Of a DNA stretch of 64,000 nt, positions 7,910-11,384 are shown in pieces. The DNA lies in assembly GCF_022879595.1 (NCBI RefSeq), contig NZ_CP084265.1:1798001-1862000 (forward strand), in the 5' to 3' direction. The position numbers were made by a program, and so were the translations under genes. Positions within the stretch are counted from its first letter, which is position 1; each line of letters begins with the position of its first letter. The DNA comes from Caballeronia sp. Lep1P3. Lineage in GTDB: Bacteria; Pseudomonadota; Gammaproteobacteria; Burkholderiales; Burkholderiaceae. Below the pieces are notes generated by a model that saw only the letters and a list, made by a program, of their open reading frames with translations, was not told where the DNA came from and made no database searches.

Positions 7910-9139
7910 TCAGCTGATCTGGCCTGCCAGCAGCGCCATGATCTGCCGGGCTTGAGGCGAGGAATCCACCTGCCCCTTGTCGTCGACAATCGCGACGCGC
8001 GTTTGACCTTCCGTGATCGCTCGCACGTTCACCTGATATTGCTTGGCCTTGATCTCCATGCGGCCATGAAAGACCTGGCTCCAGAAGCCCTGTTCGCGAG
8101 CGGACTTGTCGTTCGGATCGACATAGCGCACGTAATACACGCCGCGCGCGCGGTCGCGATCGTCCACCGTGAAGTTCGCACGATCGAGCGCGGTGCCCAC
8201 GTGCAGCCACGCGCGGTCGTAGGCTTCCGGCAAGGTCATTTGCGCGGACGTGGCGGCGGGCACGGCCTCATTATTGACCGGGCTATTGGCCGCGTTCGTC
8301 ACGTTTTGCGCGGCGATAGCGGCGGCTTTCGCATCGCCGGCCTTCGCCTGTTGCGCATTACCGGCGTTCGCCGTGCTACCGGCGTTGGCCGAAGCGCCCG
8401 AATCGGTCGCGCCGGCGGCGCCCGACGCCTGACGCGAATCCGCCATGGCGAGCGACGACATCATGCGCTTCAGATATTCGTTCTCGAGCGCCGGATCGTT
8501 CGGGCGGGCTTGCCACTGGCTCGAATCGTTGTTGACGCCCGTCAACGCCTCACGCATCCCCTTCTGGCTGATGAACACGTAGGTGCCGCCGTTCGGCGCG
8601 GCTTCGAGACGCGTGCGGTACTTGTTGCGCTCGGCCGTGACATACGAATTGCCCGTGGCCTTCGCGAGCGTGTCGCGAATGAGGCCGTCCGAAATCTGCG
8701 GATGCGTTTCGTTCCAGTCGGTCTCCATCACGCCCTTGTCGCGCGAATCGACGACGAGCAGAAAGCCCTGCTCCTGCCAGAAACGGCGAATCTGCGGCCA
8801 GACCTGATCGGGCGACTTGCCGTCCACGACGAGCCAGCGCTCGGCGCCGTCGCGCTGAATACGCAGGCCCGAGACGGGCGGCACCACGGTGGGCGCGCTC
8901 GGCGCGACTTTCTGAACCTGCTGGAGGTCCGACAGCGACGCCTGTCCGCTTTGCGGCGGCAGCGAGCGCTGGTCGACCGCTTCGTCGAGAAGGTTCGGCG
9001 GAACGGCGAGCGACGATTGCTTCGAGCGCTGATCGCTCTTGTAGTTGATCGCGGTGGGGGAAGACGTGCCGCATCCCGCCACGATTCCGGCCACCGTAAA
9101 GAGCGCAGCCACCCGCTTGGTTACACGAAAATCTGTCAT
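7910..9139 (-). CDS. bamC: Outer membrane protein assembly factor BamC (NlpB)
   Basis: BamC is a lipoprotein subunit of the BAM complex that inserts beta-barrel proteins into the outer membrane. The 409-residue protein starts with a basic n-region and hydrophobic core ending GIVAGC, so the lipidated cysteine is residue 23. It is followed by the unstructured INYKSDQRSKQSSLAVPPNLL segment that in BamC wraps around BamD. Two helix-grip domains follow (about 85-225 and 300-409), separated by an Ala/Gly/Asn-rich linker. In many proteobacteria bamC follows dapA; here the upstream neighbour is a divergent gene instead, so it has its own promoter region. Start codon 9139 is consistent with the signal peptide. 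Confidence 0.92.
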   Translation of the reverse strand: MTDFRVTKRVAALFTVAGIVAGCGTSSPTAINYKSDQRSKQSSLAVPPNLLDEAVDQRSLPPQSGQASLSDLQQVQKVAPSAPTVVPPVSGLRIQRDGAERWLVVDGKSPDQVWPQIRRFWQEQGFLLVVDSRDKGVMETDWNETHPQISDGLIRDTLAKATGNSYVTAERNKYRTRLEAAPNGGTYVFISQKGMREALTGVNNDSSQWQARPNDPALENEYLKRMMSSLAMADSRQASGAAGATDSGASANAGSTANAGNAQQAKAGDAKAAAIAAQNVTNAANSPVNNEAVPAATSAQMTLPEAYDRAWLHVGTALDRANFTVDDRDRARGVYYVRYVDPNDKSAREQGFWSQVFHGRMEIKAKQYQVNVRAITEGQTRVAIVDDKGQVDSSPQARQIMALLAGQIS

Positions 9140-9567: not shown

Positions 9568-10026
9568 ATGCGAAACATAAGACATCCTCACTACATCGGG
9601 GCGGCTCTGGCGGTGCTCGCGCTCGGGGCAAGCGCGCTATGCCACGCACAGCTCGGCGCGACTTCGCCGGCGAATGCATCGGATGGTGCGGTCATGCATC
9701 ACGCGCAAGACGGGCTGCTTGCCTACCGGGAGACCACCGACGCGTACGGGACCGTCGTGCGCGAATACGTCGATCCGGCCGGCACCGTGTACGCCGTCTC
9801 GTGGCGCGGCCCTTCGATGCCGAACGTGCAGGCGCTGCTCGGCAGCTACTTCCAGCGCTTCCGAGACGGCGCGAGCGCATCCGCAGCGGATGCCGGCTTG
9901 CACATGACGCGCGTCGCCGACGGCGATCTCGTCGCCGAAAACCGTGCGCGGCTGCGCGAATTCAGCGGGCGCGCGTGGCTCGCGAATGCGCTGCCGCCGG
10001 GCGTAACGCCCGCCGATATCCAGTAA
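9568..10026 (+). CDS. DUF2844 secreted protein
   Basis: This 152-residue exported protein has a signal peptide with hydrophobic core GAALAVLALGASALCHA, probably cleaved after CHA near residue 27. The mature part (QLGATSPANASDG onward) contains a YRETTDAYGTVVREYVDPAGTVYAVSWRGP segment, the recognisable core of DUF2844, a family of unknown function found mainly in Burkholderiales. The ATG at 9568 is preferred because CGGAGAG precedes it by 3-4 bp and it opens the signal peptide directly. It is 16 bp upstream of the DUF3443 gene, and this pairing recurs in Burkholderia-type genomes, so the products probably act together in the periplasm. Given the protease-like partner, it could be a substrate, chaperone or inhibitor; that is inference. 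Confidence 0.85.
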   Translation: MRNIRHPHYIGAALAVLALGASALCHAQLGATSPANASDGAVMHHAQDGLLAYRETTDAYGTVVREYVDPAGTVYAVSWRGPSMPNVQALLGSYFQRFRDGASASAADAGLHMTRVADGDLVAENRARLREFSGRAWLANALPPGVTPADIQ

Positions 10027-10042: not shown

Positions 10043-11314
10043 ATGACGACTCGCACGCTTCGCCTCTTCTCCTCGATCTTGCTCTGCTTCGCGCTCCACG
10101 GATGCGGCGGCGGCGGATCGGACGCTCCCACGGCATCGCCGAGCGCCCCGCCCGCCGCCAGCACGCCGGTGCAGGCCAGCGCGCCAGCCACCGCAAGCGC
10201 CCCCGTTGCAGCCAGCAACGCGGTCGCTCAGTCGACGACGCCCAACGTGCAGCCGATCCAGGTCACGAAAATCGCGACCGGCACCCGCAACATGCTTCAG
10301 ACGAGCGTGACGCTGTGCGTGCCGGGCACGAACACATGTCAGACCATCGACAACATTCAGGTCGACACCGGATCGCAGGGGCTGCGCGTGCTGGCATCGG
10401 CGCTCGATCCGGCGATCGCGCTGCCGCTCGTCAAGGCCGGCGCGTCGGGCGCCGCGCTCGCCGAATGCTCGGTGTTCGGCTCCGGCTACACATGGGGCGC
10501 CGTGCGCCAGGCGGACGTGCGGCTCGCCGGACAGCTCGCGAGTTCGATATCGGTTCAGTCGATCAGCGATTCCGCCGTGCCCGCGACGGCGGCCGATTGC
10601 AGCCAGTCCGGCCTGCCGATGCTCACCGCGTCGAGCCTGCGCGGCAACGGCATTCTCGGCGTCGGCCCGTTCGTCGCCGATTGTGGCGGCGGGTGCGCGG
10701 CGTCCGCGATGCCGCGCTGGTACTACGCATGCGCATCGGGCGCGTGTTCCGCGAGCGCGCTCGCAGCCGACCAGCAGGTGACCAACCCGATCGCGCGCTT
10801 TGCCGCCGACAACAACGGCGTGCTGATCGAGTTGCCCGCCGTGCCGCCGGAGGGCGCATCGGCCGTGGCGGGCACGATGACATTCGGCATCGGATCGCAG
10901 GCGAACAACGCGCTCGGCTCCGCGACGGTGCTGAAATCCAACTCGATCACGGGCTACGTCACGACGAGCTTCTCCGCGAACCAGTACGCGTCGAGCTTCA
11001 TCGACAGCGGTTCGAACGGCCTCTTCTTTCCCTCGACGACGCTCAAGAGCTGCGGCGCGTGGTACTGCCCGGCCACGCCGCAATCGTTCAGCGCGACGCT
11101 GCGTTCGACGAGCGGCGTCACGGCCGACGTATCGTTCAGCGTCGCCGCGTCCACGGGTCTGCTGACGAGCGGCAACAACGCGTTCAGCAATTTGGCGGGG
11201 CCGGCGAACGGCTTCTTCGACTGGGGACTGCCGTTCTTCTACGGCAGGCGCGTGTTCACGGCGCTCGAAGGCCGCGCGACGCCAGCGGGGAACGGGCCGT
11301 ACTACGCCTTCTGA
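10043..11314 (+). CDS. DUF3443 lipoprotein with pepsin-like aspartic protease motifs
   Basis: This 423-residue exported protein has a signal peptide ending ALHGC, with a probable lipidated cysteine at 21. A Ser/Pro/Ala/Thr-rich linker follows to about residue 65. It matches DUF3443, which is functionally uncharacterised as far as I know. What can be seen is a bilobed aspartic-protease pattern. VDTGSQGLRV lies at 107-116 (Asp108), GNGILGVG at 201-208 resembles the pepsin DGILGLG strand, a second IDSGSNGLFF lies at 320-329 (Asp321), and the C-terminal GLPFFYGRRVFTALEG resembles the ILGDVFLRxYYTVFD end of pepsins. Several Cys pairs suggest disulfides. Peptidase activity is a prediction. It forms a two-gene unit with the DUF2844 gene. 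Confidence 0.85.
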   Translation: MTTRTLRLFSSILLCFALHGCGGGGSDAPTASPSAPPAASTPVQASAPATASAPVAASNAVAQSTTPNVQPIQVTKIATGTRNMLQTSVTLCVPGTNTCQTIDNIQVDTGSQGLRVLASALDPAIALPLVKAGASGAALAECSVFGSGYTWGAVRQADVRLAGQLASSISVQSISDSAVPATAADCSQSGLPMLTASSLRGNGILGVGPFVADCGGGCAASAMPRWYYACASGACSASALAADQQVTNPIARFAADNNGVLIELPAVPPEGASAVAGTMTFGIGSQANNALGSATVLKSNSITGYVTTSFSANQYASSFIDSGSNGLFFPSTTLKSCGAWYCPATPQSFSATLRSTSGVTADVSFSVAASTGLLTSGNNAFSNLAGPANGFFDWGLPFFYGRRVFTALEGRATPAGNGPYYAF

Positions 11315-11321
11315 AAACGAA

Positions 11322-11353
11322 AAAGCCGTCTCCCGCATGCCGGAGACGGCTTT
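11322..11353. terminator. Bidirectional terminator between the DUF3443 gene and pcaC
   Basis: A 9-bp stem (GCCGTCTCC 11325-11333 with GGAGACGGC 11342-11350) extended by A/T pairs has A-runs on one side and T-runs on the other. It lies between convergent genes and can serve both. Confidence 0.85.
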
Positions 11354-11384
11354 CCTGACTGCGTCGAGCGCGCGATTCAACCGC

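Follow-up and report, generated by a model that had tools for sequence, protein, structure and literature searches.

A DUF3443 lipoprotein of Caballeronia with a predicted pepsin-type fold, and its DUF2844 partner gene

The DUF3443 gene and its product

The window analyzed here is a 64,000-nucleotide stretch of Caballeronia sp. Lep1P3 DNA (contig NZ_CP084265.1, positions 1,798,001 to 1,862,000). Its DUF3443 (PF11925) gene is found at 10043..11314 on the + strand and encodes a 423-amino acid protein, predicted to be a lipoprotein with a pepsin fold. The open reading frame (ORF) starts with an ATG at 10043, just after a GGGAGA that resembles a ribosome-binding site. Identification is based on a PF11925 match (444.5 bits over residues 65-423; family cut-off 25), a structure model, and structural matches. 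Features within the gene are on the same strand.

The structure model is confident, and the structural search it was used for returned full-length two-lobe pepsins, with 10-19% identity among the matches listed. The model has two beta lobes across a cleft in one chain, an outcome that the earlier note on this sequence had anticipated. The N-terminal lobe comprises residues 65-250 (10235..10792, approximate boundary) and the C-terminal lobe residues 251-423 (10793..11311), both assigned from the model, the structural matches, and a lobe profile test. Each lobe carries the D[TS]G that is expected in peptidase clan AA, one as DTG and the other as DSG. With this fold and these motifs, DUF3443 belongs to clan AA, and its pepsin fold, although modeled, is close to certain.

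Conservation was read from several sets of DUF3443 proteins. An alignment of 212 rows combines 92 ORFs from the loci with 120 database proteins; its members span profile positions from 100 or lower to 405 or higher, and identical ORFs were removed. The genomes are partly shared, and the rows are not independent. A wider set has 105 rows, left from 142 after bacterial A1 proteins swept in with it were removed. Another alignment, A2, used 73 of 74 listed members, leaving out L052. A midpoint-rooted FastTree tree has 98 tips; L002-L008 and partial ORFs were left out, and tips with chemotaxis neighbors were labeled by hand.

Residues 1-21 (10043..10105) read as a lipoprotein signal peptide with the lipobox L-H-G-C21 and Gly at +2, in agreement with the earlier note. 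Cys21 is found in 98 of the 105 rows; at this alignment position, the remaining 7 are gapped. The most frequent lipobox is L-A-A-C-G (33/98). The +2 rule for lipoprotein sorting is established for E. coli, and under this rule an outer-membrane location is indicated because Asp is at +2 in none of the 98. DUF3443 is most likely an envelope lipoprotein anchored via Cys21 in the outer membrane. A tether rich in Pro, Ala, and Ser follows (residues 22-64; 10106..10234), seen in the sequence and in the model, where the predicted local distance difference test (pLDDT) score is below 50 over residues 22-52. Besides the lipobox Cys, ten cysteines are each kept in at least 98 of the 105 rows.

In one member, L093:214-2604, an additional stretch of ~250-300 residues separates the lipobox from the protease domain, with DUF2844 still upstream. 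A 418-amino acid open frame in the window (10102-11358, +) overlaps DUF3443 in another frame and is probably an artifact of high G+C content.

Aspartate motifs

The two predicted catalytic motifs are Asp108-Thr-Gly-Ser (10364..10375) and Asp321-Ser-Gly-Ser (11003..11014). Asp108 is part of VDTGSQGLRV and is encoded at 10364-10366; Asp321 is part of IDSGSNGLFF and is encoded at 11003-11005. Both motifs, the distance of 213 residues from one Asp to the other, GNGILGVG, and the C-terminal GLPFFYGRRVFTALEG are present as the earlier note had them. The double motif exceeds what chance would give. The window has 191 stop-to-stop ORFs that reach 150 amino acids, and DUF3443 is the only one in which D[TS]G[ST] occurs twice. 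When the protein was shuffled 20000 times, two D[TS]GS motifs arose in 9 cases.

Residues that are invariant in the 212-row alignment (212/212 each) include Asp108, Thr109, and Ser111 of the first motif, Asp321 and Gly323 of the second, Gly203 and Gly206, Gly395, and Gly401. In the wider set, Asp occurs at 108 in 105/105 rows and at 321 in 104/105. Gly203-Ile-Leu-Gly206 (10649..10660) is the psi-loop motif of lobe 1. Residues 395-404 (11225..11254) likely hold the psi-loop Gly395 of lobe 2 plus the next helix; DSSP assigns a strand to 392-394 and a helix to 396-399 of the model. In the model, Gly395 is most likely the counterpart of the Gly in the pepsin C-lobe ILG. The proposed C-terminal ILG equivalent therefore survives as an invariant Gly and not as a strict ILG copy, since the residues that end in this Gly read D-W-G.

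At L052:6010-7247, from the leaf-nodule symbiont Candidatus Burkholderia humilis, DUF3443 is split over two reading frames, as if decaying.

The DUF2844 partner

The DUF2844 (PF11005) gene, identified by a profile match, lies 16 bases upstream of DUF3443 (9568..10026, +) and encodes a 152-amino acid protein. Its N-terminus has an apparent Sec signal (A-L-C-H-A before Q) and is without a lipobox, and the protein is predicted to be exported. A DUF2844 gene is on the same strand upstream of DUF3443 in 93 of 96 loci, some of which repeat a genome. Two of the other three, L058 and L076, end at a sequence edge, and L051 is a true lone copy. Among 41 related genomes, 49/51 DUF3443 genes and 49/50 DUF2844 genes are adjacent to the other, neighboring pieces of one gene having been merged before counting. 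The same 26 of these genomes hold both families. A 299-genome sample of the phylum also has the same 7 genomes with both families over the cut-off, and an eighth DUF3443 match is below it. This pairing, upstream in nearly all loci and genome by genome, is new here. The two genes are probably co-transcribed.

The lone copy (L051:1162-2673) has DTAS as its first motif and lies downstream of strongly repeated coding-like sequence. Two tandem same-strand DUF2844-DUF3443 pairs are found in five loci, L069, L072, L074, and L078 (3.1-7.1 kb), and L081; the first DUF3443 of L069, L072, L074, and L078 has DSGT as its second motif. Plasmid-borne pairs are found on NZ_CP022992.1 and NC_010879.1 (L117, L116). 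The pair may be mobile, because it occurs on plasmids and in one case beside integrase and replication genes.

The DUF2844 model has a confident block from residue 51 (pLDDT 78-96) composed of four strands, a long helix, and three strands. A structural search of the PDB with this model gave no convincing match, and any role given to DUF2844 is therefore a guess. The protein has a conserved C-terminal tail with the consensus LPAGVSAxDIQ (P143 in 80, V146 in 78, and D150 in 76 of 80 rows). This tail is a candidate for contacting the cleft of the protease.

DUF2844 is probably a dedicated modulator of DUF3443, and a regulatory role is slightly more likely than not. It could instead be the natural substrate, the two genes forming a protease-target cassette whose product acts extracellularly. 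Near-strict adjacency, co-occurrence, and the conserved tail would all fit a substrate; however, the protein is a confidently folded domain and no obvious cleavable linker protein, and no cut site is identifiable in it. A substrate is thus a possible but distinctly less probable role than regulator, and some other function is slightly less probable again.

Distribution and genomic settings

DUF3443 is over the cut-off in 26 of the 41 related genomes, 3 of 274 in a class sample, and 7 of 299 in the phylum sample, with the source genome counted, and in none of 14 control genomes. At E<=0.001 there are at least 5826 homologues in one listing and at least 3472 in another, and the two possibly overlap. 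Named matches occur in beta- and alphaproteobacteria.

Two well-populated groups are described here for the first time, one divergent from a bamC-like gene and one after cheRDBYZ. The window gene is of the first group. Its divergent neighbor, identified by a profile match (PF06804 NlpB/DapX; 7910..9139, -), encodes a BamC-like lipoprotein and is kept in the ortholog group, being present in 41 of 42 loci, with the 42nd cut off. The 43 tips of the window group cluster together with a support of only 0.52.

The second group includes another DUF2844-DUF3443 pair of the source genome, downstream of cheRDBYZ (L104:6829-8995; C1:2910000-2925000). Its DUF3443 has DTAS, not DTGS, at the first motif, as seen in L092, which is the same gene. 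The 32 chemotaxis-neighbor tips and one other tip form one clade with a support of 1.0. Within the fetched flank, flhB-flhA-flhF is found in 9 of 29 che-side loci, and flhB was not found there in the other 20. The annotation of B. glumae plasmid pBGF2 has the order che-DUF2844-DUF3443-flh.

Catalytic competence

DUF3443 is probably an active pepsin-type aspartic protease, as judged from the model and the conserved motifs. The Thr or Ser that follows each Asp and the Ser or Thr at +3 are retained across three groups, a single Asn109 among 98 tips aside. The predicted dyad and its usual hydrogen-bond partners therefore look intact, and the flap pair looks rebuilt. This rebuilding consists of a Phe at the flap Tyr position and an invariant Arg at the Trp39 position, both newly reported here from sequence comparison.

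The main alternative is a pseudoenzyme with the pepsin fold, one that binds peptides, glycans, or a partner without cutting. The plant xylanase-inhibitor members of the pepsin fold are such binders and provide a model. Several observations argue in this direction or against activity. The flap Tyr75, expected in family A1, is absent from the window protein, where the profile alignment places Phe145 (10475..10477); this position is Phe in 66, Tyr in 38, and Arg in 1 of the 105 rows. Arg115 (10385..10387), found in 105/105 rows, is seven residues past Asp108 and occupies the position of Trp39, seven residues past Asp32 in pepsin. The aligned bacterial A1 protein has Ala there. Gly110 is replaced by Ala in 13 and by Glu in 1 of the 212 rows; in the che clade it is Ala in 12 of 33 tips and Glu in one. 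One of 98 tips has Asn in place of Thr109. The lobe 2 position that is hydrophobic-hydrophobic-Gly in pepsins has Asp at residue 393 in 87 of 105 rows. P0209, the sole exception at 321, has Tyr for the second catalytic Asp and is possibly a pseudoenzyme itself. The mycobacterial PE_PGRS16 is described as having the fold with no activity seen (PMC6819658).

A pseudoenzyme would nevertheless be expected to have lost some of the two Asp residues, the Thr or Ser after each, and the Ser or Thr at +3, all of which are kept across the three groups. Moreover, Rawlings and Bateman describe Phe75 as a common replacement in A1, with no characterized active example, and a rhizopuspepsin Phe75 mutant as weakened but partly active (PMC2761423). 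The flap Tyr is thus not an absolute requirement of A1, given how commonly Phe is reported in its place. A pseudoenzyme is unlikely on balance, and an active protease is preferred.

Relationship to family A1

The proposal of the earlier note, a full two-lobe A1 protease, holds for the two-lobe pepsin fold; membership in family A1 is not demonstrated by sequence. At E<=1, PF00026 is absent from the matches of the window protein. No PDB chain matches by sequence, and no solved pepsin reaches direct significance. Full profile-profile comparison with hhalign gives a probability of 12% and an E-value of 0.0023. In the four listed profile alignments, DTGS falls on DTGS and iDsGs on VDSGT, which places both Asp motifs on those of bacterial A1 proteases. 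The second-lobe stretches have domain E-values of 0.4-1.5 and are non-significant alone; the signal therefore comes mostly from lobe 1. PF11925 is unmatched by 3 of 7 scanned bacterial A1 proteins, and Rit1_C, an unrelated family, is matched by 14 of the 105 members (best E 0.0019), below its cut-off in all three members with scores listed. Apart from the aligned motifs, these results count against a pepsin-type protease.

The sequence tie to A1, as far as profiles can trace it, is through bacterial intermediates. The bridge protein P0325, a bacterial A1 protein and one of the seven scanned, matches PF00026 at 84.6 bits and PF11925 at 25.3 bits, barely over the cut-off. Three others match PF11925 below the cut-off (E 0.0011, 0.0076, and 0.032). 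When the 105 DUF3443 rows were made into a profile and searched against 120 bacterial A1 proteins, 22 scored E<=0.01, the best at 1.1e-4, compared with 0/120 reversed and 0/600 shuffled controls.

The two-lobe form of DUF3443 could also have arisen by a duplication of its own, its A1 likeness being convergence from a single-lobe ancestor. The low identity with the listed pepsins would agree with this. However, the lobe profiles of DUF3443 and A1 match in order (N-N P 1.8e-4, C-C P 2.5e-3) better than crossed (0.18 and 0.057), and the N and C lobe profiles within DUF3443 give a P of 0.033. A per-lobe hidden Markov model search agrees, the N-lobe profile favoring N lobes (best E 4.9e-4 vs 6.4e-3) and the C-lobe profile C lobes (0.036 vs 3.9). 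Since order is preserved, these comparisons, though resting on small numbers, suggest a common two-lobed ancestor of DUF3443 and A1, and an independent duplication is very improbable. The possibility that the motifs arose by chance in some unrelated fold has nothing found in its favor and can be set aside as barely credible given the confident two-lobe model, the structural matches, the motif conservation, and the profile controls.

Proposed mechanism and significance

In the proposed mechanism, residues 65-423 would form a bilobed, pepsin-type aspartic endopeptidase held on a flexible tether of ~43 residues. The two aspartates, Asp108 and Asp321, one per lobe, would activate a water molecule, and extended peptide chains in the inter-lobe cleft would be cut. 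Substrates may be periplasmic or cell-surface proteins. DUF2844, presumably exported without a lipid anchor, would most likely act in trans as an inhibitor or zymogen substitute, a folding factor, or an adaptor.

A more speculative proposal is that DUF3443-DUF2844 is an unrecognized class of outer-membrane-tethered pepsin-type protease whose activity a small separate protein holds or switches in trans, a split zymogen. The che-side copy would serve a motility-linked envelope process, and part of its clade, with an altered DTA site, would have turned regulator. This proposal as a whole is tentative and rather doubtful.

If an active protease is correct, Gram-negative bacteria gain a pepsin-type envelope protease with thousands of homologues and a fixed partner gene. 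Two DUF families would together acquire a testable biochemical function. DUF3443 could also be used as an out-group to date the pepsin duplication.

Comparison with known systems

Among the papers searched, none names DUF3443, DUF2844, or PF11925. The retropepsins (family A2) are single-lobed and active as homodimers. DUF3443 differs in having both lobes in one chain, and is thus excluded from A2. Asp_protease_2 (PF13650) is matched by 4 of the 105 members, with a best E of 0.0013. Bacterial retropepsin-like aspartic proteases include Rlo of Pseudomonas aeruginosa, which is described with signal peptides (PMC12239564), and APRc of Rickettsia (PMC4140852).

MEROPS family A1 (PF00026) includes the shewasins and other bacterial homologues. 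A1 and DUF3443 share the two-lobe fold over the full length, one D[TS]GS per lobe, and GILG after the first, and differ in sequence (~16% identity). The earlier note called A1 rare in bacteria, which fits this phylum, where PF00026 is over the cut-off in 4 of the 299 sampled genomes. A 2009 report describes bacterial A1 proteins that are without signal peptides and predicted to be intracellular (PMC2761423), and shewasin D is described as accumulating mainly in the cytoplasm (PMC4814920). DUF3443, unlike these, is a predicted exported lipoprotein with ten conserved cysteines.

Mycobacteria already provide examples of exported proteases with the pepsin fold; among them, PecA has DTG and DSG motifs and needs the first Asp for activity (PMC6819658). 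PE-PGRS_C (PF20729), the family of PecA and PE_PGRS16, resembles DUF3443 in its exported aspartic-protease fold and in both motifs. In two of the 105 DUF3443 members, the N lobe gives a PF20729 match below the cut-off (E 1.6e-5 and 1.9e-5; 24.8 and 24.6 bits, cut-off 33), and the window protein has no such match at E<=1. By its sequence, DUF3443 is not a member of PE-PGRS_C, from which it is further distinguished by its lipoprotein signal and its DUF2844 partner.
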